From Sphingobium yanoikuyae (GTDB taxonomy: Bacteria; Pseudomonadota; Alphaproteobacteria; Sphingomonadales; Sphingomonadaceae): a DNA stretch of 64,000 nucleotides. Positions 32,816 to 54,466 of the stretch are shown piece by piece. The notes beneath the pieces were generated by a model, which worked only from the letters and a program-made list of their open reading frames with translations, did no database searches and had not been told where the DNA came from. The DNA is taken from the NCBI RefSeq assembly GCF_013001025.1, contig NZ_CP053021.1, positions 1,753,501 to 1,817,500 of the forward strand. Direction: 5' to 3'. The stretch's first letter is position 1, and each line of letters begins with the position of its first letter. Both the position numbers and the translations under genes were made by a program.

Positions 32816-32826
32816 CGGGACGTTCC

Positions 32827-32850
32827 CCTATAACTAGGTTAGATAGGCCT
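32827..32850 (-). promoter_or_regulatory. recurring promoter element (site A)
   Basis: Contains TATAACTAGGTT (32829-32840), reverse complement of AACCTAGTTATA, identical over 12 bases to the element at 47186, plus an extra TTAGATAGG half. It lies 12-35 bases before the crotonase start at 32815, where repressor binding would block transcription. Confidence 0.6.
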
Positions 32851-32903
32851 TATTCCGCCGTGCCGATATGTGCAAGCTTGCCAAGCTCCCGCCGCCGGTT
32901 TTA

Positions 32904-32914
32904 GAACAAGGTTC
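32904..32914 (+). promoter_or_regulatory. GAAC-AAG-GTTC palindrome before GntR gene
   Basis: An 11-base perfect inverted repeat with a 3-base spacer, ending 14 bases before the regulator's start. Its place suits an autoregulatory site. Confidence 0.35.
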
Positions 32915-32928
32915 ACCTTTTTGGGGAG

Positions 32929-33735
32929 ATGAATTTGTCCCGCGTGCGTAACGAGATGACAACTGACCAGGCGCCGCCGGCAGCCGGGCCTATTCGCGTG
33001 CCCAAGACATCCGAAGTTGTTGCTGATCATATTCGCAAGCGCATTGTGCGCGGCGAGCTGAAGGAGGGCGATTTTCTACCGCCCGAAGGCCAATTGATGG
33101 TGACGCTGGGTATATCCCGCCCCACGTTGCGAGAGGCGTTTCGCATCCTTGAAGCCGAAATGCTCATCAGCGTCGGTCGCGGGTCGCGTACCGGTGCCCG
33201 GGTTCATGCGCCGCGCGTCGAAAGCGTGTCGCGTTACGCAGGATTCGTTTTGCAGTCCCAGGGTACGACCGTCGGCGACATCTACGAGGCGCGGCTCGCG
33301 ATTGAGCCTTATATTGCACGGCGCCTGGCGGAAAAGCCGCCCAAGGATGTCGTCGGCCGACTGACGAGTGAAATCGATCGTTTGCAGGCGATGGTCGAGG
33401 AAGCCCGCTATGTCGATTTCATGATCGGTCTGGCTGAGTTCCATCGTATTCTGGTCGAGTTGGGGGGCAATCAGACGCTGCTGTTCCTCACGACCATCCT
33501 GCATGGCGTGGTGGCCCGGTATCAGGTCGAGCATCTCGAGAGGCGCGCCGTTTCGGACGAGATCCAGCGCAAGCGATCGCTGGGCGGTATTCGGTCCTTC
33601 CGCAAGCTGGTGGCGCTGATCGAAGCAGGCGATGGCGACAAAGCGGAAGCGCATTGGCGTCTGCATGTTATCAATGCAAACAAGTCCTGGCTGGAGCCTG
33701 ACCAAGCCGACAGCCTGATCGAAGTGTTGGATTAG
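32929..33735 (+). CDS. GntR family (FadR subfamily) transcriptional regulator
   Basis: 268 residues. Winged helix near 25-90 (SEVVADHIRKRIVRGELKEG, GISRPTLREAFRILE) and an FCD-type ligand domain with repeated Arg/His residues that normally bind a metal or acid (LAEFHRILVELGGNQ). The paralogue is at 12060. GGGGAG abuts the ATG at 32929, so the true start could be TTG 32935 or ATG 32956. Followed by the CitE-like gene after 6 bases, and divergent from crotonase/SDR; likely controls one or both. Confidence 0.87.
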   Translation: MNLSRVRNEMTTDQAPPAAGPIRVPKTSEVVADHIRKRIVRGELKEGDFLPPEGQLMVTLGISRPTLREAFRILEAEMLISVGRGSRTGARVHAPRVESVSRYAGFVLQSQGTTVGDIYEARLAIEPYIARRLAEKPPKDVVGRLTSEIDRLQAMVEEARYVDFMIGLAEFHRILVELGGNQTLLFLTTILHGVVARYQVEHLERRAVSDEIQRKRSLGGIRSFRKLVALIEAGDGDKAEAHWRLHVINANKSWLEPDQADSLIEVLD

Positions 33736-33741
33736 CCGATC

Positions 33742-34626
33742 ATGGCTGCGTCCCTTTTGCCGATGCGGTCCTGGCTATTCGTGCCGGGCGATGATGATCG
33801 CAAAATGGCTAAGGCGGTGGACAGTGCGGCCGACATCGTCCTGTTCGACCTGGAAGATGCTGTCGCGACCGAAAAAAAGGCTATCGCTCGTCAAACTGTT
33901 TGCGCCGTTCTGAAGACGCGGGCGGACGGGCACGAAAGATTGTGGGTCCGGGTCAATCCGCTGGATGGACCTTATACACTTGATGATCTGGTTGCGATCA
34001 TGCCCGAACGGCCCGGCGGGATCATGCTGCCCAAGGTTCACGGACGGCAGGATGTGGAAAGGCTGGACCATTATCTCTCTGCGTTGGAGGCGGTGAATGG
34101 CATCGCGCCGGGATCGACCCCGGTGATCGCGCTGGTGACTGAAACTGCCCAAGCGATGTTCCATACCGGCGACTATAAGGGGGCGCCGCGTGTCGTGGCG
34201 CTGACATGGGGCAGTGAGGATCTGGCTGATTCGCTCGGCGCGACCACGAATCGAAATTCCGACGGCAGCTATGGTTTTACCTATGAACTGGCGCGGTCCT
34301 TATGTCTTTTGGGCGTGGCTGCGGCTGGGGTGACGGCGATAGATACGATACAGAGCGATTTTCGCGATCTTGACGGCCTGAAGATGCGGGCGGAAAGTGT
34401 GCGACGCGAAGGGTATCGAGGCATGTTGGCGATCCATCCTGCACAGGTGGATGTGATCAACGCAGCGTTCAGCCCAACAGACGCGGAAATCGCGGAAGCG
34501 CAAGCGATCGTTGATCTTTTCTCTGCCAGTCCGGGCACCGGCGCCATAGGTTACAGGGGCGGGATGCTCGACCGGCCCTTTCTGTCGCGCGCTCAGAAAT
34601 TGCTTGAACAGGCCGGCCTTCGCTGA
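33742..34626 (+). CDS. HpcH/HpaI aldolase / citrate lyase beta-like (CitE) protein
   Basis: 294 residues, TIM-barrel C-C lyase. Motifs are SWLFVPGDDDRK, DIVLFDLEDAV (metal-binding Glu/Asp), LPKVHG, LVTETAQAMF, TWGSEDLADSLGA and AIHPAQVDVIN. Stand-alone members cleave malyl-, citramalyl- or other beta-hydroxyacyl-CoAs to acetyl- or propionyl-CoA plus a keto acid. It follows the GntR gene by 6 bases, so it is probably under its control. In context it may release a short fragment late in the pathway. Exact substrate unknown. Confidence 0.85.
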   Translation: MAASLLPMRSWLFVPGDDDRKMAKAVDSAADIVLFDLEDAVATEKKAIARQTVCAVLKTRADGHERLWVRVNPLDGPYTLDDLVAIMPERPGGIMLPKVHGRQDVERLDHYLSALEAVNGIAPGSTPVIALVTETAQAMFHTGDYKGAPRVVALTWGSEDLADSLGATTNRNSDGSYGFTYELARSLCLLGVAAAGVTAIDTIQSDFRDLDGLKMRAESVRREGYRGMLAIHPAQVDVINAAFSPTDAEIAEAQAIVDLFSASPGTGAIGYRGGMLDRPFLSRAQKLLEQAGLR

Positions 34627-34639
34627 TCGCAGGTGCGGC

Positions 34640-35827
34640 TCAATTGGCACGCACCAACAGGAAACATCCCGCCAGAGGCCCGCCAGCGGTTGATAGCGCT
34701 GTGACGCGTGGCGTGCCATTGACCTGTCGGTTGCCACCCAGTCCTCGCAACTGCACGCACGCTTCATGCACCTGCCCATAGGCGTGCATCCGTCCGGCGG
34801 ACAGCGCGCCGCCGTTGGTGTTGATCGGGAGATCGCCCTCGAGCGCGATGCGGCTGCCGTCGCCGATGAAGTCACCCGCTTCATACCGACCGCAAAAGCC
34901 GAAATTTTCCAACCAGTTGATAGTATGGAAGCTGAATCCGTCGTAAAGTTCAGCGACGTCGACGTCGGCGGGCTTGAGGTCGGTGCGGTTCCACATCATT
35001 TGCGCCACTTTGGGCTGGGCCTGGGTGGCGAGTGCGTCGAGTTGGGTCCAGCTGTTGCGATACTGCATGGAACTGCCGATCGCTTCTATATGGGTAACGG
35101 GATGTGGCCCGTCGCGCGCCGCGTCGATGTGACTCAGGATTATGGCCGTCGAACCGTCGATCGGGACGTCGCAGTCGAACAAGCGCAACGGCGTGGAGAT
35201 GATCGGAGAGGCGAAATAATCATCCATGTCGATCGGCGTACGATAGATGGCCGCAGGATTGCGGCTCGCATTGCGCCGGCCGTTGATCGCGATCTGTGCG
35301 ACCTGCTCGGGCTTGATACCCGATTCATGGACGTAACGCTGAAACATGAGCGCCTGCTGGGCCGCGGCGGCATAGGTGTGATAGGGCGCATACCAGGCGA
35401 AGGGGCCGCGCACTCGATCGCCAGGCCTATTCAGCGCGTTGGCAAAACCCGCCTTGCGCGCGGTTGCTTCATACATGGTGCGGAATATGAGTATGTGGCG
35501 GCATAGTCCGGATGCGATCGCGCCGATCGCGTTGAACAGCGCGCCGAACTGCCCCGACGTTTCGGCAGCGTTGGAATACCAGCCCAGCTTGAGCCGCAGC
35601 GCATCCTGCAAGGCTGGAATGCCGACATCGGAAAAGCCCGATCCATCCGCCCGGTCCCCTGGCCAGGTAGCCATGCCGTCTATGTGGGCGCGGGTCAGGC
35701 CTGCGTCCGCGATCGCCTCCAGAGCCGCGTCGATCGTCAGGCCAAGCGCAGACTTGTCCGCCCCGCGCGATATTTTCGACTGCCCGATTCCTGTAATCGC
35801 AGTCTCTTTTTCGGCATAGGCGGTCAT
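34640..35827 (-). CDS. thiolase-like protein (SCP2/lipid-transfer type) without nucleophilic Cys, possible retro-aldolase
   Basis: 395 residues, paralogue of the protein at 27620. The nucleophile position reads AAETSGQFGAL with no Cys; ELYDGFSFHTINW and NTNGGALSAGRMHA match the aldolase-type active site, and the final GGPLAGCFLL is the usual closing loop. Its ATG overlaps the TGA of the DUF35 gene (ATGA), so the two are made together as in the Ltp2-DUF35 pair of steroid side-chain cleavage. By inference it cleaves a beta-hydroxyacyl-CoA to a ketone and a short acyl-CoA. Confidence 0.84.
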   Translation of the reverse strand: MTAYAEKETAITGIGQSKISRGADKSALGLTIDAALEAIADAGLTRAHIDGMATWPGDRADGSGFSDVGIPALQDALRLKLGWYSNAAETSGQFGALFNAIGAIASGLCRHILIFRTMYEATARKAGFANALNRPGDRVRGPFAWYAPYHTYAAAAQQALMFQRYVHESGIKPEQVAQIAINGRRNASRNPAAIYRTPIDMDDYFASPIISTPLRLFDCDVPIDGSTAIILSHIDAARDGPHPVTHIEAIGSSMQYRNSWTQLDALATQAQPKVAQMMWNRTDLKPADVDVAELYDGFSFHTINWLENFGFCGRYEAGDFIGDGSRIALEGDLPINTNGGALSAGRMHAYGQVHEACVQLRGLGGNRQVNGTPRVTALSTAGGPLAGCFLLVRAN

Positions 35828-36255
35828 GCGTCATGCTCCACCGAAGCGGATATGGGCGCAAATAGCGGCACCCAAAGATCATCCACCTGCTCGAAGCGCA
35901 CCGTGACCGGCATGTTGATCTCCACCTCGTGCGGCGCACAACCGACGATATTGGTGGCGAGTCGTACCTCGGGACTTTCCTCCAGCGCGACGAGCGCCAG
36001 CACATAGGGCACGGTGAGGCCGGGCATCCATTGCTTGTGATTGACCGTGAAGCTCTCGATCGTGGCGCGCCCGGACACCGCATGGGGCGCCGTATCGCGC
36101 CCTTCGCATTGGGGGCAGAAGCCGGTCGGCGGATGAATGAGATGATGGCAATCATTACATCGTTCGATCAGCAGCCTGCCATCCTTCCCGCCGGTCCAGA
36201 AGGGCAGGGTGTCGCGATCGGTCGCGGGCAGCGGACGGAGGATCTTATCGGTCAT
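35824..36255 (-). CDS. DUF35 OB-fold protein with zinc ribbon, partner of thiolase-like protein
   Basis: 143 residues. The rubredoxin-like ribbon has Cys33, Cys36, Cys47 and Cys50 (ERCNDCHHLIHPP, GFCPQC), then an OB fold (ATIESFTVNHKQW, VPYVLALVALEE, NMPVTVRFEQVD). ATG 36255 gives the usual family start, although its ribosome site is weak; an upstream in-frame TTG has none of the family's features. DUF35 proteins scaffold acyl-CoA for thiolase-like aldolases. Translationally coupled with the gene at 34640. Confidence 0.88.
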   Translation of the reverse strand: MTDKILRPLPATDRDTLPFWTGGKDGRLLIERCNDCHHLIHPPTGFCPQCEGRDTAPHAVSGRATIESFTVNHKQWMPGLTVPYVLALVALEESPEVRLATNIVGCAPHEVEINMPVTVRFEQVDDLWVPLFAPISASVEHDA

Positions 36256-36395
36256 CGCGCGCCCGCCCCATTTGCGCCAAAAGCAGTTTGTCGCAAATCC
36301 CGTCGCCAAGCAGGACCATCGTGCACGATGGTTTGTGCGTCATCGCCGTCAAATTCCCCTCCCGCGAACCAAGTATCTTGCGCTTTATGCTGTAT

Positions 36396-36413
36396 CACCT
36401 AGTGAACCATGAT
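36396..36413 (+). promoter_or_regulatory. recurring promoter element (site F)
   Basis: CACCTAGTGAACCATGAT agrees at 14-15 of 18 positions with the reverse strand of site C (44783-44800) and keeps the ACCTAGT core. It lies ahead of the crotonase at 36451 and overlaps an in-frame ATG at 36409, which argues that translation starts further downstream. Confidence 0.5.
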
Positions 36414-36450
36414 AGGCATCGACCGTCAAATCATATGGAGACCCGGACGC

Positions 36451-37257
36451 GTGGCAGAGATGGACGAAGCACAGGCCCCCGAGGTGCTGGTGGATAATGA
36501 GGGCGGCGTTCGCATCATCACGTTGAACCGGCCCGACAAACTCAATGCGCTCGCCGACGGCATCATGACCTTGCTGGCCGACGCGACCGCCGATGCGGCG
36601 CGCGATCCCACGGTGGGCTGTGTGGTCGTAACGGGGGCGGGGCGCGGCTTCTGCGCAGGAGGCGATCTCAAGGGGGGCGGGCACAAGCCGCTTCCCGCGA
36701 ACAATGATGTGGGCGGCCGCGTGGAGCAGGGGTTCGCCCGCCTGCGCGGTTACATGGAAACCTCCCGCCTGCTGCATGAAATGCCCAAGCCGACGATCGC
36801 GATGGTGAACGGCCCGGTGGCAGGCGCGGGGATCGGCATCGCCGGGGCTTGCGATTTGCGGTTCGCCGGCCGATCGGCCACCTTCCTGTCTGCATTCGAC
36901 CGGATCGGCGCCGGTGGCGATTTCGGCTCCAGCTATTTCTGGACCAAGATAGTGGGTTCGGGCGTCGCGCGTGAAATCTTTTTCCTGGGCGAGAAATATG
37001 ACGCCGAATCCGCGCTGGCCAAGGGCATCTACACCCGTCTCTTCGACGATGCCGTGCTGCGTGCGGAAACGCTCAAGGCGGCGCACCGTCTCGCCAACGG
37101 TCCGCGCATGGGGTATCGGTACATGAAGTCGAACCTCAATATCGCCGAGGACAGCGCGTTCGAAACCGCGCTGGATCATGAGGCTCTGAACATGGGGCTG
37201 TCTACCACCGTCACGGCGCAGATCTATAAGGCGATGCAGGAGGCAAAGGGCGCCTGA
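36451..37257 (+). CDS. enoyl-CoA hydratase/isomerase family protein
   Basis: 268 residues if read from GTG 36451, which has GGAGA at 9 bases; ATG 36460 and 36409 are in frame, but the latter overlaps the promoter element. Oxyanion segments GFCAGGDLKGGG and NGPVAGAGIGIAGACDLRFA, then FDRIGAGGDFGSSYF in place of the usual Glu/Asp loop, which suggests isomerase-like or unusual chemistry. Single-gene unit between the DUF35/thiolase operon and the acyl-CoA dehydrogenase pair. Confidence 0.86.
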   Translation: MAEMDEAQAPEVLVDNEGGVRIITLNRPDKLNALADGIMTLLADATADAARDPTVGCVVVTGAGRGFCAGGDLKGGGHKPLPANNDVGGRVEQGFARLRGYMETSRLLHEMPKPTIAMVNGPVAGAGIGIAGACDLRFAGRSATFLSAFDRIGAGGDFGSSYFWTKIVGSGVAREIFFLGEKYDAESALAKGIYTRLFDDAVLRAETLKAAHRLANGPRMGYRYMKSNLNIAEDSAFETALDHEALNMGLSTTVTAQIYKAMQEAKGA

Positions 37258-37343
37258 CCGCCGGAGACCGCAATCAGGTCAGCCATGCGTGGCGTGGTAG
37301 CCCTGCATCGCCGACTTTCCTGTCGGCTCGTGCAGAGCTATTT

Positions 37344-37361
37344 GACTAAGTTGTATAAGAA
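37344..37361 (+). promoter_or_regulatory. recurring promoter element (site G, weak)
   Basis: GACTAAGTTGTATAAGAA matches the consensus at about 11 of 18 positions, keeping AGTT-TATA. It overlaps a TTGACT that may act as -35 and lies 57 bases before the acyl-CoA dehydrogenase start. Confidence 0.35.
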
Positions 37362-37417
37362 GTGTCATGGCAGACGTGGCAACGCGATTGAACGACAGCC
37401 CTGGGAGAATGGGTCAG

Positions 37418-38614
37418 ATGGATTTGAGCTATGGGGAAGGCGCCGAGACCTTTCGCCGGGAGGTGCGCAGCTTCCTGAAAGGCGCATGGCAGCCAGGCGA
37501 ACGGCGCAAGGATGAGTTGAAGGCCTTCATCCGCGATTTCCGGACCAAGGCGACGGACGCGGGCTATCTCTATCGCGCGATTCCAAAACAATATGGCGGG
37601 TCGGAGCAGCCGGCCGACGTGGTCAAGGCGCAGGTCATCCGCGAAGAGTTCGCCCGCGCCCGTGCTCCGATGGAGATTGGCGGCAACGGCATGTCGATGC
37701 TGGTCCCAACCTTGCTGGAAAAGGGCACGCCCGAGCAGAAGGACATGTTCATCCGTCAGACGATGTCCGGCGACATGATGTGGGGGCAGGGCTATTCCGA
37801 GCCCGCCACCGGGTCCGACCTGGCGTCGGTCCGCACGCGGGCCGAACTGGTCGGTGACGAATGGGTCATCAACGGGCAGAAGATCTGGACGAGCCAGGGC
37901 GACCGCGCGACTCACATGTTCGGCCTGTTTCGCACGGAGCCCAACGCGTCCAAGCATGGCGGCATTTCCTATCTGATGCTGGACTTGAATCAGCCCGGCG
38001 TCACCCGCCGGCCGATCCGCCAGATGACGGGCGAGGCGGGCTTCTACGAATTTTTCTTCGACAATGCCCGGACCCCGGCGAGTTGGATCGTTGGCGAGCG
38101 GGGCGATGGTTGGAATGTCTCGCGCACCACGCTCAAACATGAGCGCGCGTCCATCGGCTCGGCTGATGCGCTGGGTGGCACCTTCCGCAAGCTGGTCGAG
38201 CTGGCGCAGGAGATGGAGATTGACGGCCAGCCTGCGATCAAGGACGCGAAGGTGCGTGATGCGCTGACGAAGATCGAAGGCTGGGTGATGGCGCACCGCT
38301 ATTCCAGCTTTCGTCTGTTCAGTCTTGCCGCCGCGCAGGAACAACCCGGCCTCGTCGGCCTCATGATGAAGTTGCTGCTGACTGAAACCGGGCATGAGAT
38401 GGCGCTGCTGGCGCAGGAGCTGATCGGTGATCATGCGCTGATCGAACCCGCTTCTGCGGGCACCCGTGGCCGTGGCCCGGAAAAATGGCTGGACCAGATC
38501 ATGGGCACGCTTGGCAATTCCATTGCCGGCGGCACAACCAATATTCAACGCAACATCATCGCGGAGCGTGGCCTTGGCCTGCCGCGCGACCTGGCCATGG
38601 AGGCGGACAAGTGA
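37418..38614 (+). CDS. acyl-CoA dehydrogenase, large subunit of a likely heteromeric pair
   Basis: 398 residues. QGYSEPATGSDLASV (FAD/substrate loop), NGQKIWTSQGD and the ending GGTTNIQRNIIAERGLGLPRDL are the classical acyl-CoA dehydrogenase features. ATG 37418 is preferred since GGGAGA lies 9 bases upstream; ATGs at 37367 and 37409 lack spaced sites. Its stop overlaps the next GTG (GTGA). Paralogous to the pair at 13786/14929. Introduces the double bond in a CoA thioester; partner gene supplies a GGxGxxxE segment. Confidence 0.9.
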   Translation: MDLSYGEGAETFRREVRSFLKGAWQPGERRKDELKAFIRDFRTKATDAGYLYRAIPKQYGGSEQPADVVKAQVIREEFARARAPMEIGGNGMSMLVPTLLEKGTPEQKDMFIRQTMSGDMMWGQGYSEPATGSDLASVRTRAELVGDEWVINGQKIWTSQGDRATHMFGLFRTEPNASKHGGISYLMLDLNQPGVTRRPIRQMTGEAGFYEFFFDNARTPASWIVGERGDGWNVSRTTLKHERASIGSADALGGTFRKLVELAQEMEIDGQPAIKDAKVRDALTKIEGWVMAHRYSSFRLFSLAAAQEQPGLVGLMMKLLLTETGHEMALLAQELIGDHALIEPASAGTRGRGPEKWLDQIMGTLGNSIAGGTTNIQRNIIAERGLGLPRDLAMEADK

Positions 38615-39681
38615 GGTTCCATCCGACCGAAGAGCAACTGGCGATCCAGGACGCGCTCAAGGGCACGCTGGAGGATGCGATGCCGCGCGAACGACTTGAA
38701 AAGATCGTCAATGGCGGCGGCGATTTCGATCGCGAGAGCTGGAACGCATTGATGGCGCTGGGCCTTGGAGGCCTCGCTTTGCCCGAAAGCGTGGGCGGCG
38801 CGGGGCTGGGCCTGGTCGATCTCGCCATGGGCATCGAAGTTTTGGGCCAGGGCGGTGTGGTAGGCCCCGTTCTTCAGCATTGCCTCGCGGGGCTGGCGCT
38901 CAATCTGGCCGATGACGCGGACGCCAGGGAGACCTGGCTCGGCAAGATCGCCAGTGGCGAAACCGTAGCGACCGTGGCGTTCGGCGGCAATTGGCTGCCC
39001 GACAGCTGGGCCGTGACAGTGGCGGGCGGCAAGGCGAGCGGCGTTATCGGTTTCGTGCCCGGCGCGGATGCGGCGGATCTGATCCTGGTTGGCACGCAGG
39101 GCGGCGGGCTGGCGCTGATCGAAAAGGGTGCCGGAGTCGTCGTGGAGGCCGTGCAGTCCGCTGATCGCACGCGCCGACTGTCCGCCGTGACGTTCGACGG
39201 CGCGCCTGCTTCCGTCCTGTTCGAACCCGGAGATGCGCGCATTGCGCGCATTTTCGATGCGGCCCTGGTGCTGACCTCGGCCGACGCGCTCGGCGGCGCG
39301 CAATATTGCCTCGACCTGTCCGTTGCCTATGCAAAGGAACGTGAACAGTTCGGTGTCGCGATCGGCCGCTTTCAGGCGCTCAAGCACCAGTTGGCGCAGA
39401 TGGCGCTGGAGGTCGAGCCTGCCCGCGCCCTGATGTGGTATGCCGCTTATGCCTGGGATAGCCAGCAGGACGATGCCGCACGCGCGGCGGCGATGGCCAA
39501 GGCGCATATCGCCGATCGCTACGTGTCCGTGGCCCGCGCCGCGGTGGCGGCGCATGGCGGCATCGGCTATACGTGGGAATATAGCCTCAACACTTGGTTC
39601 CGCCGCTCGCTCTTCGATCGCGCTTATCTGGGCAGTCCCACCGTGCATCGCGCGCGAGCGGCCGATCTGGCGGGCTGGTGA
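38611..39681 (+). CDS. acyl-CoA dehydrogenase, small subunit of a likely heteromeric pair
   Basis: 356 residues, read from GTG 38611 that overlaps the previous stop. FHPTEEQLAIQDALK begins the helical domain; EQFGVAIGRFQALKHQLAQM and HGGIGYTWEYSLNTWFRRS, with the catalytic Glu in WEY, form the C-terminal domain. The beta domain is compact. GTGA overlaps on both sides couple it to the large subunit and to the DUF2889 gene, so the three are probably one functional set. Confidence 0.88.
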   Translation: MRFHPTEEQLAIQDALKGTLEDAMPRERLEKIVNGGGDFDRESWNALMALGLGGLALPESVGGAGLGLVDLAMGIEVLGQGGVVGPVLQHCLAGLALNLADDADARETWLGKIASGETVATVAFGGNWLPDSWAVTVAGGKASGVIGFVPGADAADLILVGTQGGGLALIEKGAGVVVEAVQSADRTRRLSAVTFDGAPASVLFEPGDARIARIFDAALVLTSADALGGAQYCLDLSVAYAKEREQFGVAIGRFQALKHQLAQMALEVEPARALMWYAAYAWDSQQDDAARAAAMAKAHIADRYVSVARAAVAAHGGIGYTWEYSLNTWFRRSLFDRAYLGSPTVHRARAADLAGW

Positions 39682-40757: not shown

Positions 40758-40762
40758 AATGG

Positions 40763-43316: not shown

Positions 43317-43327
43317 GGTTCGTCTCC

Positions 43328-44727: not shown

Positions 44728-44782
44728 GCCGTCATCCTTCCCCATTGTCGTGGCGCACCAAAGTGGCTAGCGCTTTTTCCAC

Positions 44783-44800
44783 ATCATAGGTAACTAGGTG
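44783..44800. promoter_or_regulatory. recurring promoter element (site C) between divergent NMO-like genes
   Basis: On the minus strand CACCTAGTTACCTATGAT, sharing ACCTAGTTA with sites A and B. It is centred in the 127-base gap between starts at 44727 and 44855, so it could control both directions. Confidence 0.55.
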
Positions 44801-44854
44801 CGATAAGCCCGTCGAGGGGCTTTGCAGCAAAAGTGGAGCGGGGCGGGCAAACAT

Positions 44855-45838: not shown

Positions 45839-45888
45839 CCGCCGACGTCCCATCCTATTCCATCCCATCCCTTTCAGGAGCAAGTGAA

Positions 45889-47052: not shown

Positions 47053-47096
47053 ACGGGAGGGAGAACGGCCTGGCCATATCTCCTCTCCCAAAGCTG

Positions 47097-47133
47097 AGCC
47101 GGCGCTCCGGTGCAAGGGAGCGTCGGCTTTTTT
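47097..47133 (+). terminator. Rho-independent terminator after the thiolase gene
   Basis: AGCCGGCGCTCC (47097-47108) pairs with GGGAGCGTCGGCT (47116-47128) with one mismatch or G-T pair, followed by a run of six T. Confidence 0.85.
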
Positions 47134-47185
47134 ACAAGGTGCGATGACTTTGAGGGGCTGGTCTGAGCAGGCTTTACCAGTAGCA

Positions 47186-47203
47186 AACCTAGTTATATAG
47201 GTT
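47186..47203 (+). promoter_or_regulatory. recurring promoter element (site B), best palindrome
   Basis: AACCTAGTTATATAGGTT: arms AACCTA and TAGGTT are perfectly inverted around GTTATA. It lies 34 bases before the SDR start at 47238, just after the thiolase terminator, and is the most symmetric copy of the element. Confidence 0.65.
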
Positions 47204-47237
47204 GTTGATAGATTCTTACGAAAAGGGGCGTTTCGCC

Positions 47238-48032
47238 ATGCAGATCACGAATGAATTGGCCGCAATTGTTACCGGCGGCGCATCAGGCTTGGGCAAGGCA
47301 TCGGCCAAGGCGCTCGCCGATGCGGGTATGAAGGTTGCGATCTTCGATCTGAACGAGGAAGCGGGTGAGGCCGTCGCGCGCGACATCGGCGGCCTGTTCT
47401 GCAAGGTGAACATTCTGGACGAGGATTCGGTGCTGGCCGGCTTTGAAAAGGCGCGCGCCGCCCATGGGCAGGAGCGGGCGCTGATTCATTGCGCGCAGGT
47501 GTCGAAGGGCGGCAAGACGGTTGCCCGCGACCGCGACACCGGTGGCTTCAAGCGGCTGTCGACGGAAGATTATGCGTTTGGCGCGCAGGGCATCCTGATC
47601 GCCAGCTATCGCATGGCGTCGATTTCGGCGTTGGGCATGGCCTCCGCCGAGCCGCTGAACGAAGATGGCGAGCGCGGCGCGATCGTGCTGACCAGCTCGG
47701 CAGCGGCGCAGGACGGTCAGGTTGGTCAGGTGGCCTATGGGTCGCTCAAGGCTGGCGTCAATGGCCTGGTCCTGCCGATGGCGCGTGACCTGATGGAACT
47801 GGGCATCCGCGTCAATTCGGTCATGCCGGGCATCTTTGCCACCCCGCCCATGTTGGGGGTCAAGGACACGGCGCCGCAGATCTTCGACAATCTGGAAAAG
47901 TCGGTGCCCTTCCCCAAGCGTCTCGGCAAGCCGGAAGAGTTTGGTTCGCTGATCGTCGAACTGGTCAGGAACAGCTATTTCAACGGCCAGAACCTGCGCA
48001 TTGATGGCGCCATCCGAATGCCGCCGCGCTAA
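47238..48032 (+). CDS. short-chain dehydrogenase (HSD10-like 3-hydroxyacyl-CoA dehydrogenase type)
   Basis: 264 residues. IVTGGASGLG (10-19), SSAAAQDGQVGQVAYGSLK with Ser153/154, Tyr167 and Lys171, and the late DLMELGIRVNSVMPG resemble type-2 3-hydroxyacyl-CoA dehydrogenases. The usual NNAG is replaced by HCAQ (84-87), and the helix that should contain the conserved Asn is lengthened (GGKTVARDRDTGGF). AAGGGG precedes the ATG. First of a three-gene operon with two thioesterases. Confidence 0.87.
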   Translation: MQITNELAAIVTGGASGLGKASAKALADAGMKVAIFDLNEEAGEAVARDIGGLFCKVNILDEDSVLAGFEKARAAHGQERALIHCAQVSKGGKTVARDRDTGGFKRLSTEDYAFGAQGILIASYRMASISALGMASAEPLNEDGERGAIVLTSSAAAQDGQVGQVAYGSLKAGVNGLVLPMARDLMELGIRVNSVMPGIFATPPMLGVKDTAPQIFDNLEKSVPFPKRLGKPEEFGSLIVELVRNSYFNGQNLRIDGAIRMPPR

Positions 48033-48045
48033 GCGCCCCGTCCCT

Positions 48046-48525
48046 ATGGCGCAAAGCTTGCAGGAAAGGGCGGCGGCGCAAGATCCGCCGCCCGGTTTCG
48101 TCCCTATATCCTTTTCCGATGGCTTTCTGGGCCATAACGGTCCGGTCTATGCACGCCGTGCCGATGGCGAAGTCACGTTCGGGTGCCGCATCCTGCCGCA
48201 TCTGTGCAATCCCATGGGTATCGCGCATGGCGGATGGGTGGCGACGATGTTCGACATCGTGCTGCCACTGACGGCGCGCTATGTGGCGGGGTTCGAGGAA
48301 CGCTTCCTGCTGACCGTTCAGATGGGCATCGACTATCTGACCGGTCCGAAGCTGGGAGATTGGGTCGAAGGACGGGCGCAGGTCTTGCGCACGACCAAGC
48401 GCATGGTCTTCATTCAAGGGACGCTGGAGGTGAATGGCGAATTGACCGCGCGCGGCAGCGGCATATTCCGCATCGGCCCCCCTGCACCGCCCATCGACCT
48501 CGAGCAGACCGGCCCGCTGCCATGA
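48046..48525 (+). CDS. PaaI-type hotdog thioesterase
   Basis: 159 residues. The hotdog helix motif HLCNPMGIAHGGWVATMFD contains the Asn and HGG typical of PaaI-like acyl-CoA thioesterases; TGPKLGDWVEGRAQVLRTTK and MVFIQGTLEVNGEL are the beta sheet. It starts 13 bases after the SDR stop. It would release CoA from stalled or final intermediates. A weak ribosome site suggests translational coupling. Confidence 0.86.
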   Translation: MAQSLQERAAAQDPPPGFVPISFSDGFLGHNGPVYARRADGEVTFGCRILPHLCNPMGIAHGGWVATMFDIVLPLTARYVAGFEERFLLTVQMGIDYLTGPKLGDWVEGRAQVLRTTKRMVFIQGTLEVNGELTARGSGIFRIGPPAPPIDLEQTGPLP

Positions 48526-48538
48526 TGCCGAGCGCTGC

Positions 48539-49351
48539 ATGAGCCGTTCGCTTGTTGAAATATTGACGCTCGAACCCTGTGGGCACGACAGCTTCCGCGG
48601 GTGGCCGCCTGAGCCTGACGCGTCACGCATCTTCGGCGGCAGTGTGGTGGCCCTGGCCCTCATGGCTGCCGCCGCAACGGTCGCAGGGCGAGCGTGCCAT
48701 TCGCTGCACGCCTATTTCATCCATCCCGGCGATGTCACGAAGCCGATCCTGTTCGAGGTTGATCGCGCGCGCGACGGTGGCATGTTCGCGACGCGGCGGG
48801 TTATCGCGCTTCAGGACGGACGGCAGATATTGAACCTGGCGGCGTCCTTTCAGGCGCCGGCCGATGGCACATTCGACCATCAATTCACGCGCGCCGCTGA
48901 CCTGCCCGATGCGGACGACCTGTATGACGACGACCTGCGGGGCGAGGCCGTCGGCCTGCAACTGCGCAACATCCGGGTGCCGCGCCCCGGCATGGAAGAC
49001 GGAATTCGCCCGCCCCGCCACGCCATGTGGTTCCGCAGTGCCTTGCCGCTGGGGAACGATATCGCGATGCACCAGGCGGCGCTCGCCTATGCGTCGGACT
49101 TCCCCCAACTGCCCACCATCGTCCAGCCGCATCCTGTGACCTGGCGCACGCCCGGCTTTCAATTCACCAGCCTCGACCATAGCCTCTGGTTCCATCGCCC
49201 GTTCGACTTCACGCGCTGGCATCTGTGTGAGCTGGATACGCCCATCAGCGCGGGCGAGCGTGGCCTCAGCCGGGGCACGATTTACGACGGCGACGGCCTG
49301 CTGGTCGCATCGGTCGCACAGGAAGCCATGATCCGGATGCGCGGCGCCTGA
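48539..49351 (+). CDS. acyl-CoA thioesterase II (TesB-like)
   Basis: 270 residues, a double hotdog. ASRIFGGSVVALAL and RRVIALQDGRQILNLAASFQ in the first half; SLDHSLWFHRPFDF and GERGLSRGTIYDGDGLLVAS in the second, which supply the Asp, Ser/Thr and Gln catalytic set known for TesB. Last gene of the SDR/thioesterase operon, convergent with the crotonase at 49358. It hydrolyses medium- or long-chain acyl-CoA, in the cytoplasm. Confidence 0.88.
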   Translation: MSRSLVEILTLEPCGHDSFRGWPPEPDASRIFGGSVVALALMAAAATVAGRACHSLHAYFIHPGDVTKPILFEVDRARDGGMFATRRVIALQDGRQILNLAASFQAPADGTFDHQFTRAADLPDADDLYDDDLRGEAVGLQLRNIRVPRPGMEDGIRPPRHAMWFRSALPLGNDIAMHQAALAYASDFPQLPTIVQPHPVTWRTPGFQFTSLDHSLWFHRPFDFTRWHLCELDTPISAGERGLSRGTIYDGDGLLVASVAQEAMIRMRGA

Positions 49352-49357
49352 CGACTG

Positions 49358-50146
49358 TCAGGTGCCGCGGAACACCGGCTTGCGTTTTTCCAGGAACGCA
49401 GCGACGCCCTCGGCATGATCGGCGGTCCGCCCCGCCTCGCGCTGGTGAATGCGTTCCATCCGCAGCGTATCCGTCAGTGACTGGTTCATAGCCATTGCGA
49501 TCCCCCTGCGCATCAGGCCATAGGCGACGGTGGGGCCGGTCGCCAGCCGCGCGGCGATCAATCGGGCCGTTTCCATCAGCGCCGCATCCTCGACCACCTG
49601 ATAGATCAACCCCCATTCCAGTGCGAGGTCGGCTGGAATACGCTCGCCCAGCATCATCATCGCGGTCGCCCTTGCCTTGCCGGCCAGGCGTGGCAGCAAC
49701 CATGTCGCCCCGACGTCGGGCACCAGCCCGATATTGGCGAAGGGCTGCAGGAAATAGGCCGATCGCCCGGCGATGACGATGTCGCCAGCCAGCGCATAGC
49801 CGCATCCTCCGCCCGCCGCCGCGCCGTTCACTGCGGTCACCAGCGGACAGGGCAGGCGCACGAGCCGCTCGAGCACGGGATTGAACCCGCTTTCCAGTCC
49901 GGCGCCCATGTCGCGCGCGGCATCCCCGCCGCCGCGCCCGCCGGCAGACAGATCCGCGCCCGAACAGAAAGCCCGGCCGTTCCCGCTCATCAGCAGAACG
50001 CGCGCGCCTTCATCCGCGACGCGATCTAGCGCGTGCATCATCTCGTCGAGCGATTGTTGCGACAGCGCATTGAGCTTTTCCGGCCGGTTGATTGCCAGCG
50101 TGGCGATGCCGTCGGTGATGGCGAAGTCGATATGTTCGTAAGCCAT
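49358..50146 (-). CDS. enoyl-CoA isomerase-like crotonase
   Basis: 262 residues. AFCSGADLSAGGRGG, NGAAAGGGCGYALAGD and NIGLVPDVGATWLLPRL: the Asp of LVPDVG is at the second catalytic position, as in PaaG and 2,3-isomerases, and the first has no acid, so isomerase is likelier than hydratase. C-terminal AEGVAAFLEKRKPVFRGT. ATG 50146 is 12 bases upstream of the stop of the GST gene read in the same direction. Third in the TetR-GST-crotonase run. Confidence 0.86.
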   Translation of the reverse strand: MAYEHIDFAITDGIATLAINRPEKLNALSQQSLDEMMHALDRVADEGARVLLMSGNGRAFCSGADLSAGGRGGGDAARDMGAGLESGFNPVLERLVRLPCPLVTAVNGAAAGGGCGYALAGDIVIAGRSAYFLQPFANIGLVPDVGATWLLPRLAGKARATAMMMLGERIPADLALEWGLIYQVVEDAALMETARLIAARLATGPTVAYGLMRRGIAMAMNQSLTDTLRMERIHQREAGRTADHAEGVAAFLEKRKPVFRGT

Positions 50147-50157
50147 GCGGGTCCCGA

Positions 50158-50787
50158 TCAACGCGAAATAGGCAGCAGCCATGGACCGCCCTTTTCGACG
50201 GCGGCAATATAGGCCGGGCGGGCAGTCACTCGCGCCAGCCAGGCGCGCAGCCGTGGCCGGTCGCCCACCGCGCCGAACTGGTCAGCTACCGCCACGACAT
50301 AGCCGAATTGAATGTCGGCGGCGCTGAAGCCGGACGCCAGCAGATAATCTCGCCCGTCGAGCTTGGCCTCGATCTCCGCCATCGCCCCGTCGACGACTTC
50401 CAGCCCATAGGCGCTCGCGCGTGACGTCTTGTCGCAGCCGCGCACCAGCATCAGCATGACAACGCCCATCATGGCGGTGCCTTCGCCCGCGTGCAGCCAT
50501 TCCAGATATTCCCCCCAGTCAGCGTCGGCGGGCGACCTGCCCAACCGTCCGTCGCCCAGTTTTGCGGCAAGATATTCCAGGATAGCCCCCGATTCCGCGA
50601 TCACTGCGCCGTCATGCTCGATGACGGGTGACTTACCCAGCGGGTGTGCCTGTTTGAGTTCGGCTGGCGCTCGAAACGTGCTGGGATCGCGGTGGTAGGT
50701 CGTCAGTTCATAAGGTTCGCCCAATTCCTCCAGCAACCAGAGGATGCGGGTCGAGCGCGAATAGTCGAGGTGGTGGACCTTAATCAT
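50158..50787 (-). CDS. glutathione S-transferase
   Basis: 209 residues. Thioredoxin-like N-terminus with YSRSTRILWLLEEL (Ser near the active site), GKSPVIEHDGAVIAES (glutathione-binding cis-Pro and Glu-Ser), then an all-helical C-terminal domain (FSAADIQFGY with the N-capping Asp). It may detoxify epoxides or act as an isomerase/dehalogenase. Its ATG overlaps the TetR stop (ATGA), so it is coupled to the regulator. Confidence 0.9.
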   Translation of the reverse strand: MIKVHHLDYSRSTRILWLLEELGEPYELTTYHRDPSTFRAPAELKQAHPLGKSPVIEHDGAVIAESGAILEYLAAKLGDGRLGRSPADADWGEYLEWLHAGEGTAMMGVVMLMLVRGCDKTSRASAYGLEVVDGAMAEIEAKLDGRDYLLASGFSAADIQFGYVVAVADQFGAVGDRPRLRAWLARVTARPAYIAAVEKGGPWLLPISR

Positions 50788-51509
50788 GCACCCTTCTCCA
50801 TCAAAATGTCGATTTTGCGTTCAATGGCATCGAGCCGCTCATGCATGGCGGCAACCGGGGGTTCGCAGGCAGCGGTCAGCACAGGCATCACGAAGTAGCG
50901 CAGCCGGCTCCGTAATCTCTCTTCGTCCCACATCTCGCCGCTGGCGAGGACGATCATCTGGTCGGTGATCCACCCGGTCAGATCGTCCAGCGTCACCCCC
51001 GCAGCCGTCGCCCGTTCGTCGATCAACGACGCCAGCACCGAAGCGATGCTGCCGGTCGATCCGTCCGCCTGCGCGGCTCGGAACAATCGGGCACTTGCGG
51101 GCGACATGCCCGAATGCAGGCTGCGATCGAGCCACCCGACATGCTGCATTTCCAGGATGGCGTGCGCCAGTACCGTTTCCAGTCGGTCCGCTACGGACCC
51201 GGGACCGATCAGAATTTTGTGCGACCATTCGCGAAACGGCTTTGCGCCCTCCATCAGCAACGCTGTGAACAGGGACTCGCGATTGCCGAACCGGCGGTAC
51301 AGGGTCGTGCGGGACACGCCGGCCTCCGCAGCCACTTCCTCCAATGACACATTGTCGATGCCTTTGCGCCGAATGCAACTCGCCGCGGCATTCAGGACCG
51401 GGTCCGCGATCGGCTGGGCGCCCATGGCCGGTCGGCCGAATGCGCCCGTTTCGATGCTGCGACTATTGTCCGACGGCGGCGACATGACGTCTATCTGTTT
51501 CTTCCCCAT
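50784..51509 (-). CDS. TetR family transcriptional regulator
   Basis: 241 residues. A 35-residue N-terminal arm precedes the helix-turn-helix (NVSLEEVAAEAGVSRTTLYRR, read here through SLEEVAAEAGVSRTTLY) and RESLFTALL; a helical ligand domain follows. The gene leads a GST-crotonase operon. The AT-rich palindrome at 51556-51576 lies 47 bases before its start and is nearly the same as one upstream of the ferredoxin-P450 operon, so it may regulate itself and the P450 genes. Confidence 0.86.
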   Translation of the reverse strand: MGKKQIDVMSPPSDNSRSIETGAFGRPAMGAQPIADPVLNAAASCIRRKGIDNVSLEEVAAEAGVSRTTLYRRFGNRESLFTALLMEGAKPFREWSHKILIGPGSVADRLETVLAHAILEMQHVGWLDRSLHSGMSPASARLFRAAQADGSTGSIASVLASLIDERATAAGVTLDDLTGWITDQMIVLASGEMWDEERLRSRLRYFVMPVLTAACEPPVAAMHERLDAIERKIDILMEKGA

Positions 51510-51555
51510 GATCCTCGCATAGCAGGATATTCCCTGGCTCGTATCGGCAATCGCT

Positions 51556-51576
51556 ACAAATTTATGATATTGTATC
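51556..51576 (-). promoter_or_regulatory. candidate TetR operator, shared with P450 operon
   Basis: ACAAATTTATGATATTGT (51556-51573), followed by ATC, is an imperfect palindrome (ACAAAT/ATTGT) and agrees with the reverse complement of 10078-10098 at 17 of 21 positions. Confidence 0.5.
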
Positions 51577-52635
51577 AGCTTCCCCGACCCAATGATGCCA
51601 TATCGATGACGAAGCGATATTTGACGTCGGCCTTCTCCATACGTTCGAAGGCGTGGTTTATGTCCTGGATGGCGATGGTTTCGGTTTCGGGCAGGATGGT
51701 CTTGGCAGCGCAGAAGTTCAGTAATTCCTGCGTTTCGGGCAGGCCGCCAATCGCCGACCCCGCCACCGATTTCTGCCCGCCGACCAGCAGGCCGCTATGG
51801 AGCGAGGGTACCATGTCGATTGCGCCAACGGTCACATGAACGCTCCGGGCGCCAGCAGCATCAGATAGCGGCTGATGTCGTGCGCCACTGGGATCGTGTC
51901 GAGCACCAGGTCGAAACTGCCCCTGGCTGCCTTCATCGCCTCTTTGTCCGATGCGATCAGAACCTAGTGCGCGCCCAGCGCCAGAGCATCGGCCGACTTG
52001 GCGGGGGATGTCGTCACGACGGTCACTTCGGCGCCCAGCCCGACGGCCAGTTTGACGCCCATATGGCCCAGGCCACCTAGTCCTGCGACCGCCACCCGGC
52101 TTCCCGGACCGACTTTCCAGTGCCGCAGCGGCGACCAGGTCGTGATGCCCGCGCAGAGCAGCGGTGCGGCGCGCTCGGGATCCAGACCTTCGGGCAGTTT
52201 CAGCACGAACTGTTCGCGCGCGACGATATGGTCGGAATAGCCGCCATAGGTCGGCGATCCGTCCATCCGGTCCTTGCCATTATAGGTCGGCGTGGAACGC
52301 TTGACGCAATATTGCTCCGGCCCGCGCACGCATTCTGGACATGCCATGCAACTATCGACCATGCAGCCGATCGCTGCCAAGTCGCCAATCTGGAACCGCG
52401 TGACGTCCGGGCCGACCTCGGTGACCGTCCCGATGATCTCATGCCCTGGCACGCACGGACAGACGCTGTTATGCCAATCGTCACGCGCCTGGTGCAAGTC
52501 GAAATGGCATACGCCACAATAGCGGATGTCCAGCCGCACGTCGTCGGCGCGCAGCGCGCGCCGCTCGAAGGTGAATGGCGCCATTGGGCTTTCGGCCGAC
52601 AGGGCGGCATAGCCCGTCGCATGGGTCATGGTCAT
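51575..52635 (-). pseudogene. zinc-dependent alcohol dehydrogenase (CAD/YahK-like), broken
   Basis: The first 223 codons are intact: YCGVCHFDLHQ and GHEI (catalytic zinc), SCMACPECVRGPEQYC (structural zinc) and VAGLGGLGHMGVKLA (cofactor). Then TAG at 51964-51966 interrupts LGAH-VLIASDKEAM, where a Glu is expected. Near 51835-51840 a frameshift follows, after which TVGAIDMVPSLHSGLLVGG to DVKYRFVIDMASL is read in another frame. Two lesions make a dead gene. It would have oxidised or reduced a primary alcohol/aldehyde. Separated from the crotonase at 52662 by 26 bases. Confidence 0.85.
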
Positions 52636-52661
52636 TCTCCCGATTTGGTGGACAGGTACAG

Positions 52662-53444
52662 CTACGCGCCGCGGAACGCCGGCTTGCGCCGCTCCAGGAA
52701 GGCGGCGACGCCCTCCTGAGCATCCGCGCCGGCCATTGCAATGGCGATCGCCGCAGCTTCGGCATCCAGATGATCGTGCAGGGTCGCCTCATAGCTTCGC
52801 GCCAATAGTCGCTTCACGCCGCCAAAGGCGCCGGTCGGCCCTGCTGCGATCCGGGTGGCCACGACAGTGGCCTCGTCCGCCAGCGCTTCGTCGGCGACCA
52901 TGCGGGTTGCCAGGCCCAGATCCACTGCCTCCTGCGCGGTCAGCCGCCGCCCCAGATAGGCCAGTTCCTGCGTTGCGCGCAGTCCGATCAGCCGCGGCAA
53001 CAGCCAGGTCGCGCCGCCATCGGCGGTCAGGCCGATCCCGGTATAGGCCATGGCAAAGGAAGCGGATTGTCCCACCAGCACGATATCCCCGCTGGCAACA
53101 AGGCTCAGGCCCGCACCCGCGGCCGCCCCCTGGGCTGCGATGACCAGCGGGGCTGGATGTGCGGCAAGCAGGGCGAGGCCGACGTGCAGACGCCGCGCCA
53201 GACGCCCGATGAAGTCGGCAGGGTCGCTTTCGCTGGCAAAGCTGCGAATGTCGCCGCCGACGCAGAAATTTTTGCCTTCCCCCCGGATCAGGAACGCGCG
53301 CACGGCCGGCGTCGCCGTCAGCCGCTCGACTACCGCGCTGAACGTATCGACCAACTCCCAGCTCATCGCGTTGCCCGCTTCGGGCCGGTCGAGTGTGATG
53401 GTGGCAAGCCCGCCTTCAAGCGTTCCGGTGACGAGATCGGTCAT
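52662..53444 (-). CDS. enoyl-CoA isomerase-like crotonase
   Basis: 260 residues. NFCVGGDIRSF, QGAAAGAGLSLVASGD and GIGLTADGGATWLLPRL: the PaaG-like Asp loop without the first Glu, so an isomerase is favoured. DAQEGVAAFLERRKPAFRGA is the usual end. ATG 53444 follows CAGGAG; the upstream in-frame sequence crosses the promoter element and is not coding. Upstream site D (53484) suggests membership in the recurring regulon. Confidence 0.87.
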   Translation of the reverse strand: MTDLVTGTLEGGLATITLDRPEAGNAMSWELVDTFSAVVERLTATPAVRAFLIRGEGKNFCVGGDIRSFASESDPADFIGRLARRLHVGLALLAAHPAPLVIAAQGAAAGAGLSLVASGDIVLVGQSASFAMAYTGIGLTADGGATWLLPRLIGLRATQELAYLGRRLTAQEAVDLGLATRMVADEALADEATVVATRIAAGPTGAFGGVKRLLARSYEATLHDHLDAEAAAIAIAMAGADAQEGVAAFLERRKPAFRGA

Positions 53445-53483
53445 GGCATGGCACTCCTGTCGATGGCTGCGCTGCTCTTGCCC

Positions 53484-53501
53484 GACATAGTTAGATAGGT
53501 C
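53484..53501 (-). promoter_or_regulatory. recurring promoter element (site D)
   Basis: GACATAGTTAGATAGGTC matches AACCTAGTTATATAGGTT at 14 of 18 positions and shares GTTAGATAGG exactly with part of site A. It is 40-57 bases before the crotonase start at 53444 and after the convergent/tandem thioesterase end at 53548. Confidence 0.6.
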
Positions 53502-53547
53502 CAGCGGGAACATATATCTTCGTGCTGCGGTGGTGCAAAAAGCGTCC

Positions 53548-54324
53548 TCATCCGCGCGCCGCGATGAAAAGGGTCTGGTGCGCCCGCGCGAACGGCCCGT
53601 CACGATCGGCCAGAACCATGTCGGACCGGCCCACCCCCTGTCCTGCGCTCGCGGTACGCGCGTCGATCAACAGCCATTCGCCCACCGGCTCGCGTACCAG
53701 ATGGACCGCAATGTCGAGATTGGCGTAGGTCCAGACCTCGCTGTCGATCTCGCTGCCCAGGCCCCCGCCGAAATCCCCCAATATGGCCGTGCGCAGCAGA
53801 GGCGAAAGCGTCACGCCTTTTACATGTTCATGGGCGAATCGGACCCATAGCGTGCCTGGTCCGCGCGTTCGCAATCCGCCCCGCACCAGCCGCGTCTCCA
53901 TCGATCCGCCGAAAGCTCTGTTGCCCATGAAATCGCTGGGCGCGACATCTTCCGGCGGCGGATAGGGATTGGGAGTGGCGATCATGGGCGTATCGGCCTT
54001 GCGCACGCGCAGCGCCGTCGCGCGCGCCACGACGCGATCTCCCGTCAACAGTTCGGCCTCCACCATCTGGATTCGTCGACCTTCGCGGACGGTCCTGGCG
54101 TGACCGATCGTTGGCGCGAAATCGGCGGCGGACAATATATCGATGGTCAGCCGCGCCGTCGTCATCGCGACTGTGGCGGGCACCTGCTCGACCAGATGGG
54201 TCAGCAGCCCGCCCAATGCCACGCCATTCTGCTTGCCTCGTTCCCACGGACTGGCCGCCAGCCCCGTGGGCGTAAAGGCGTCGCCGTCGGCGGCGTAGAA
54301 GAAGGGCGCTGGCCGTTCAGTCAT
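53548..54324 (-). CDS. acyl-CoA thioesterase-like double-hotdog protein
   Basis: 258 residues. PFFYAADGDAFTPTGLAASPW, then KQNGVALGGLLTHLVEQ (first hotdog helix), TTARLTIDILSAADFAP, and EWLLIDARTASAGQGVGRSD with LADRDGPFARAHQTLFI in the second half. The arrangement follows the acyl-CoA thioesterase 4HBT_3 family. ATG 54324 is the first that fits. Divergent from the SDR at 54556; site E is between them. Likely trims or recovers CoA. Confidence 0.84.
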   Translation of the reverse strand: MTERPAPFFYAADGDAFTPTGLAASPWERGKQNGVALGGLLTHLVEQVPATVAMTTARLTIDILSAADFAPTIGHARTVREGRRIQMVEAELLTGDRVVARATALRVRKADTPMIATPNPYPPPEDVAPSDFMGNRAFGGSMETRLVRGGLRTRGPGTLWVRFAHEHVKGVTLSPLLRTAILGDFGGGLGSEIDSEVWTYANLDIAVHLVREPVGEWLLIDARTASAGQGVGRSDMVLADRDGPFARAHQTLFIAARG

Positions 54325-54446
54325 GCTCTGAATGCGCGCATCTGGCAACGCGGCTACGGCGCGATGTCCCATTGATAAAGGTCGTCAGCCGCTTGATCCC
54401 CTCCATTTTCACCCGCGTTCCTGCAAGCCGATCCCTCGATAAGGTC

Positions 54447-54466
54447 TACTACGTTATCTATGTTTC
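54447..54466 (+). promoter_or_regulatory. recurring promoter element (site E)
   Basis: CTACTACGTTATCTATGTTT: GTTATCTATGTT agrees with GTTATATAGGTT at 10 of 12 positions; the left CTA half is displaced by a base. It is between the divergent thioesterase (54324) and SDR (54556). Confidence 0.45.

Follow-up and report, generated by a model that had tools for sequence, protein, structure and literature searches.

A palindromic operator family in a catabolic island of Sphingobium yanoikuyae and its probable FCD-type GntR regulator

The FCD-type GntR regulators of bacteria include a FadR group, whose FCD domain has seven helices, and a VanR group, whose FCD domain has six (PMC7797058; this and the papers below are cited from extracts of their text). 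In E. coli, NanR represses through three dimers placed on three GGTATA repeats (PMC8012715), and in Agrobacterium fabrum the FCD/VanR-group repressor Atu1419 controls hydroxycinnamic acid catabolism through palindromes at promoters (PMC7797058). Here, these systems are compared with a family of 25-bp elements in a 64,000-nucleotide stretch of Sphingobium yanoikuyae (NCBI RefSeq assembly GCF_013001025.1, contig NZ_CP053021.1, positions 1,753,501 to 1,817,500 of the forward strand; "the window"), which a first-pass annotation had proposed as the shared promoter element of a regulon. Altogether, the analyses suggested that the element is the operator of g095, an FCD-type GntR regulator whose gene lies in the window. 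About 41 units and about 94 genes would thereby be under common control. Based on sequence comparisons, we give this reading a probability of roughly 80%.

NanR (PDB 6on4, 6wfq, 6wg7), which belongs to the FCD-type GntR regulators and represses sialic acid genes, is by profile the closest solved relative of g095. Its operator consists of direct GGTATA repeats, whereas the element described here is a 25-bp palindrome without such repeats, and the targets here are CoA-linked catabolic genes. Atu1419 resembles g095 as an FCD-type GntR regulator of a catabolic cluster in an alphaproteobacterium, but its operator is given in the extract as 10 bp long (ATGTATACAT) and as serving three genes, compared with 25 bp and about 41 predicted units in the present case. 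In having a single regulator over many beta-oxidation genes, the predicted regulon is like those of FadR, PsrA, FadP and LiuR. PsrA and FadP are TetR proteins, averaging 11.1 and 17.9 genes per genome, respectively, in the extracted text (PMC5343134), and LiuR is a MerR protein, whereas the regulon predicted here is of the GntR type and would hold about 94 genes. FadR proteins do belong to GntR, yet they match the g095 profile at just 1.1e-8 to 6e-6. Repressors of catabolic clusters are also described in sphingomonads, namely the TetR protein EdcR of Caenibius tardaugens, whose palindromic operator overlaps the -10 box and which probably represses itself (PMC8700777), and PheR of Sphingobium sp. 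SHPJ-2, which is treated as a member of the IclR family (PMC13273656). As given in these extracts, the EdcR operator (TnnCnnTACnAnTnGTAnnGnnA) and the PheR core (GCAACG) are unlike the element found here. No paper describing this operator or regulator was recognisable among the listed results of searches in the open-licence PMC literature, including one with six literal operator strings.

The operator and its distribution

All seven sites of the first-pass annotation were present where it had placed them, as copies of a near-palindromic 25-bp operator, ASATATWTAACYWRGTTAWATATST, with matrix scores of 19.7 to 27.7. The 18-mer noted earlier is the right two thirds of this operator. The perfect 6-bp arms at 47186, the 14 of 18 identical positions at 53484 and the common ACCTAGTTA at 44783 (on the other strand) were likewise confirmed, whereas the site at 37344, described as a weaker copy, turned out to be among the strongest (26.8). 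A logo pooled over the source genome and other genera (185 oriented windows, with divergent sites entering twice) showed a 25-bp palindrome with the centre AACYWRGTT and the outer arms ASAT/ATST. It can also be divided into two 16-bp palindromes that overlap and are spaced 9 bp apart, and two or three overlapping 20-bp matches 9 bp apart were detected in 18 of 29 sites (threshold 9); these overlapping palindromes suggest more than one dimer. Because the unit is a palindrome with overlapping half-sites, the orientation of a site relative to its gene means little.

The sequence searched comprised 284 kb including the window, with 20 stretches of 20 kb (400 kb) of the same genome as a control and with genes called by a simple script. 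As a literal string, allowing up to three mismatches, the 18-mer has a single copy in the window, and the family is visible only by a weight matrix. A 29-bp matrix was refined from the eight best matches; its training set of 30 sites includes one that is probably false, in AT-rich DNA at C1:1942867 (18.6). A symmetric model of 35 bp was discarded because it drifted towards AT-rich DNA.

The 29-bp matrix identified 29 sites scoring at least 17 in C1:1786323-1919517, a 133-kb island that runs from 32.8 kb of the window to 102 kb past its end. The remainder of the 284 kb gave one match of at least 17, the one at C1:1942867, and the 400-kb control gave none (best 15.7). The 5-28 kb half of the window had been said to be free of sites, which agreed with a highest score of 11.8 in positions 1-32,800. 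Around C1:1942867, about 5.5 kb (C1:1937500-1943000) carry almost no called genes and produce spurious matrix matches in AT-rich DNA.

An external matrix built from 87 unique sites of other genera, with C1:1942867 not in its training set, has letters independent of the source genome, but its sites were located using the first matrix. It recovered 27 of the 29 sites; these 27, scoring at least 14, were all that it found in the 284 kb, and every one lay inside the island and between genes, although just 7.7% of the island is intergenic. In this 284-kb stretch, the motif is not equally common inside genes. Nothing in the control scored 12 or more. With the first matrix, intergenic placement was partly built in, since training used intergenic sites, and the external matrix is the fairer of the two.

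Pattern counts told less than position. Over the whole 5.94-Mb genome, ACCTAGTTATATAGGT with up to three mismatches gave 13 matches, 12 of them in C1:1786324-1909246, and its reversed control gave 24; the consensus pattern with up to one mismatch gave 38 rows (21 in the island, including all five exact ones, and 17 outside) compared to 67 for its reversed control. Since the raw counts are not above the reversed controls, the evidence lies in clustering and placement. When 19 stretches around outside matches were rescored (one ends at the match itself), 13 held nothing scoring 8 or more. Four matches outside the island scored 10.2 to 16.5 within called genes, and one (13.5) fell in a stretch without any called gene. 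An isolated intergenic site at C1:4510049-4510077 (18.9; external matrix 16.7) lies 34 bp upstream of a MarR-like gene (label by eye) and was read as a MarR palindrome; it may instead belong to the regulon.

As first noted, the sites stand directly before gene starts: a start codon lies within 350 bp of all 29, with a median distance of 60 bp to the nearest. In other genomes, 98 sites were found in 53 loci, 96 of them intergenic and 94 of these 96 within 150 bp of a start, and the median from operator centre to nearest start in other genera was 37.5 bp. With units defined as genes on the same strand with gaps below 120 bp, 44 entries less three repeats yielded 41 distinct units headed by sites, predicted to hold 94 of the 131 called island genes. 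The six catabolic units originally proposed do have real sites before them; however, there are more units than these, 15 of the 29 sites have starts on both sides, and the group continues beyond the window. Clustering, placement and conservation in other genera strongly support the regulon as such.

The island encodes acyl-CoA dehydrogenases, crotonases, short-chain dehydrogenases/reductases (SDRs), thiolases, CoA-transferase III, MaoC, AtuA and HpaB proteins and a TonB receptor. Judged from these enzyme families, its pathway probably works through CoA thioesters; the family scans, which included no systematic search for one, turned up no diagnostic enzyme of a single pathway, and no substrate is named. 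Two further regulators, MarR g143 and IclR g189 (labels by eye), stand behind operators. In Sphingobium sp. TCM1, a 20.8-kb locus is 99.0% identical over its full length to this region. Inverted copies of a 2491-bp element with istA/istB-like genes (by eye), 99.96% identical, lie at C1:1740313-1742803 and C1:1934049-1936539 and flank about 191 kb that hold the window and the entire regulon. This stretch may be a mobile or acquired island.

Co-occurrence of the operator with the GntR regulator

The g095 protein has an N-terminal GntR winged-helix domain (PF00392, 58.9 bits, cut-off 27) and a C-terminal FCD effector domain (PF07729, 70.5 bits, cut-off 24.3). Its best NCBIfam match is NanR (NF003011), at 94.1 bits far under the cut-off of 260, and its profile match to E. 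coli NanR reaches E 4.8e-23. The gene caller favours a start at 32944 over 32929.

Relatives of g095 at E 1e-30 were found in 10 of 199 genomes, and in seven, including the source genome, they were at least 50% identical. A 17-mer pattern allowing up to two mismatches was present in 45 of the 199, mostly as single scattered matches, with 11 in the source genome, three on one contig of genome G056 and one each in three genomes of genus g38. The stretches read in G056 and genus g38 contained homologues of island genes, operators and g095-like GntRs, G056 alone having five operators (20.3 to 32.7). The pattern matched in six of the seven genomes with a GntR of at least 50% identity versus 39 of 192 others (p = 0.0006); the match in G141 is on a different contig from the GntR and may be due to chance. 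Near the less similar GntRs of G031 and G084, no site of at least 17 was detected.

The thiolase g171, a target in the island, has matches at E 1e-120 in 89 of the 199 genomes, and the 30 best-matching of these 89 loci, one per genome, were scanned. An operator (21.4 to 28.3) was identified directly before the thiolase in 5/5 scanned genomes with the GntR and in 0/25 without it (p = 7e-6), where one match of 12.2 sits 1.1 kb downstream. Among the 59 remaining genomes with a match, G179 and G056 were read; each encodes the GntR and has an operator before the thiolase (27.2 and 30.3, respectively). The operator also precedes the thiolase in G194 and G141, where the GntR gene is on a separate contig, which separates the effect of the GntR from that of gene neighbourhood. 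This comparison of orthologous promoters suggests that a promoter acquires or loses its operator in step with the regulator.

Loci from named genomes, at least 78 in number and several of them from genomes already read, were also collected with a profile built on six g095-like proteins; the figures that follow apply among the matches listed. Where the GntR was at least 50% identical, 52 of 57 loci carried sites of at least 17, 105 in all, while column-permuted matrices found an average of 2.4 sites in 2.3 of the same loci. The less similar loci had 16 sites in 8 of 21, versus 4.5 expected. Directly behind the sites, 147 genes were recorded in 56 loci. The GntR itself was among them in 15 loci, and other frequent targets were a g205-like SDR (23), an SMP-30-like protein (20, by eye), a g108-like FabK/nitronate-monooxygenase-like protein (13) and a g144-like acyl-CoA dehydrogenase (9). 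All 57 loci retain H172, H242 and H246, and 56 retain D117, whereas the NanR histidine that aligns near g095 position 224 in our own reading of the alignment is not kept. The wing RGSR[ST]GA was present in 59 loci, 54 of them with sites, compared to 6 of 19 for other wings.

Several observations weigh against this assignment. The split by wing largely parallels that at 50% identity and does not constitute independent evidence, and the loci in the 57-locus comparison were picked by their GntR, scored with a matrix trained on the source genome and include several near-duplicates. Five of the 57 (L146, L154, L175, L176 and L177) have no site. In G194 and G141, the GntR has no cluster beside it and only weak sites (14.9 and 16.8) just upstream. 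The operator core has the polarity AC-N3-GT, whereas typical GntR operators show GT-N-AC. A TTGACA-like hexamer starting at -15 from the operator centre was found in 22 of 62 non-divergent sites versus about 3% expected, but on inspection most of this signal comes from the ACA arm of the operator itself, preceded by a weak TTG, and nothing is concluded from it. Finally, in G163 (locus L118), a GntR just 35% identical is accompanied by two sites (20.9 and 19.0) of a somewhat different palindrome. This related palindrome, AACTGTATATAYTGGTT, lies at 2454 and 3454 of L118, on both sides of the gene, and the protein may be a sister regulator whose operator has shifted.

Table 1. Operators and regulator genes in the window (window coordinates; operator scores from the 29-bp matrix)
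Feature	Position	Strand	Context
Operator	32823..32851	+	Between divergent g094 (crotonase, -) and g095 (GntR, +); score 21.3; candidate autoregulation site
g095, FCD-type GntR regulator	32929..33735	+	PF00392 and PF07729 above cut-off; proposed operator binder
Operator	36387..36415	+	Before g099 (crotonase, +) and g098-g097 (-; ChsH2-like OB/zinc-ribbon protein and thiolase-like protein, from family searches); score 21.9
Operator	37335..37363	+	Before g100-g102 (two acyl-CoA dehydrogenases, DUF2889 protein); score 26.8
Operator	44781..44809	-	Between g107-g103 (nitronate monooxygenase-like and others, -) and g108-g109 (+; FabK/NMO-like enzyme, thiolase); score 23.6
Operator	47177..47205	+	Before g110-g112 (SDR, two small proteins); score 27.7; reference site of the first-pass annotation
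g115, TetR-family regulator	50784..51425	-	No operator upstream; not supported as regulator
Operator	53475..53503	+	44 bp before g118-g117 (crotonase-like, alcohol dehydrogenase-like by eye, -); score 19.7
Operator	54438..54466	+	Between g119 (-) and g120-g122 (+; SDR, thioesterase-like by eye, CoA-transferase III); score 22.7

The operator-free half of the window encodes a second FCD-type GntR, g075 (12060-12839, minus strand), which is 42% identical to g095 and may control that half through a different motif.

Alternative explanations

Some operators are at least 100 bp upstream of the start codon, a position open to an activator, and g095 might bind the operator but activate rather than repress. 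We consider this unlikely, as the short operator-to-start medians here and in other genera speak against activation, many sites serve two divergent genes and the GntR has a site of its own. In addition, NanR and Atu1419 are both described as repressors in the extracts cited (PMC8012715, PMC7797058).

The sites could also be bound by another island regulator (TetR g115, MarR g143, IclR g189, MarR g170 or TetR g153) or by one encoded elsewhere, with the GntR a mere neighbour. MarR proteins often bind AT-rich palindromes, the g143 and g189 genes have operators upstream, and homologues of MarR g170 and TetR g153 occur in 19 and 14 of the 57 listed loci, respectively. Furthermore, that count covered homologues of the island regulators only, so that an unrelated co-occurring regulator would escape it. 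The six other genomes with the GntR argue otherwise. For TetR g115, five gave no match at E 1e-5 and G056 a partial one of 48 residues; for IclR g189, the sole match was in G056 (24% identical); and for MarR g143, matches were 22-38% identical in five, with none in G037. None of these three was supported as the regulator by this search. In G120 and G179, the gene lists for the neighbourhood of the sites contained no recognised regulator other than the GntR, and the sites follow the GntR even before an unlinked thiolase. Binding by any of these other proteins is therefore improbable. Of the two candidates of the first-pass annotation, the GntR at 32929 is favoured by co-occurrence across genera, the thiolase comparison and the sites at its own gene, while the TetR at 50784, lacking a convincing relative in six other carriers, is not.

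A still poorer candidate is an HxlR-type regulator outside the island. In genomes G069, G193, G162, G095, G047 and G078, sites of 16.9 to 23.6 do lie between an HxlR-like gene (by eye) and the gene of a small exported protein. However, the island has no HxlR gene, all six HxlR matches of the genome are elsewhere, and G162, G095, G047 and G078 are not among the GntR-bearing genomes, their single site being outside any catabolic cluster, all of which makes this explanation very improbable. The look-alike palindrome, for example ACCTATTTATATAGGT, was observed in six sphingomonad genomes (L071, L072, L077, L078, L079 and L080, near 10000, or near 586 in L072) and is probably the HxlR-like regulator's own operator. 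That the element is just a feature shared by promoters in AT-rich intergenic DNA, as its AT-richness, the drift of the 35-bp model and the unremarkable raw counts might suggest, is equally hard to credit, given a control that has promoters of its own and no site at 17 (29-bp matrix) or 12 (external matrix), the 2.4 sites from permuted matrices versus 105 observed, and the operator-free thiolase promoters of genomes without the GntR.

Mechanism and meaning

What the computation shows is the motif, where it lies, that it is conserved in other genera and that its occurrence depends on the GntR being present; direct binding of the operators by g095 we infer from these observations. In the proposed mechanism, g095 would bind the 25-bp palindrome, including the site before its own gene, would repress by covering the promoter, and would be released by a pathway intermediate, either an acid or a CoA thioester. 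Sites near start codons, common to divergent genes and before the regulator's own gene fit such a self-limiting repressor released by an intermediate.

More tentatively, and with the odds somewhat against it, the system could be a regulator-operator pair not described before in sphingomonads, with cooperative binding of at least two GntR dimers to overlapping palindromes 9 bp apart. Such a pair would act as master switch over a 133-kb mosaic of acquired operons, including the local MarR and IclR regulators, with operons recruited by gaining an operator whose presence across genomes tracks the regulator and not the gene.

An FCD-GntR regulon is a known kind of system, and it is the size of this one, and the way in which the operator is present or absent along with the regulator, that are of interest. 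A large catabolic island, parts of which recur in Sphingopyxis, Novosphingobium, Altererythrobacter, Pontixanthobacter and others, has been assigned a probable regulator, an operator and about 94 candidate targets, and the operator can serve as a search key for the scattered genes of the pathway. If, as suggested here, the operator is gained or lost with the regulator, growth of the regulon becomes directly testable, and if the inducer is found, the pair may be usable as a substrate sensor.

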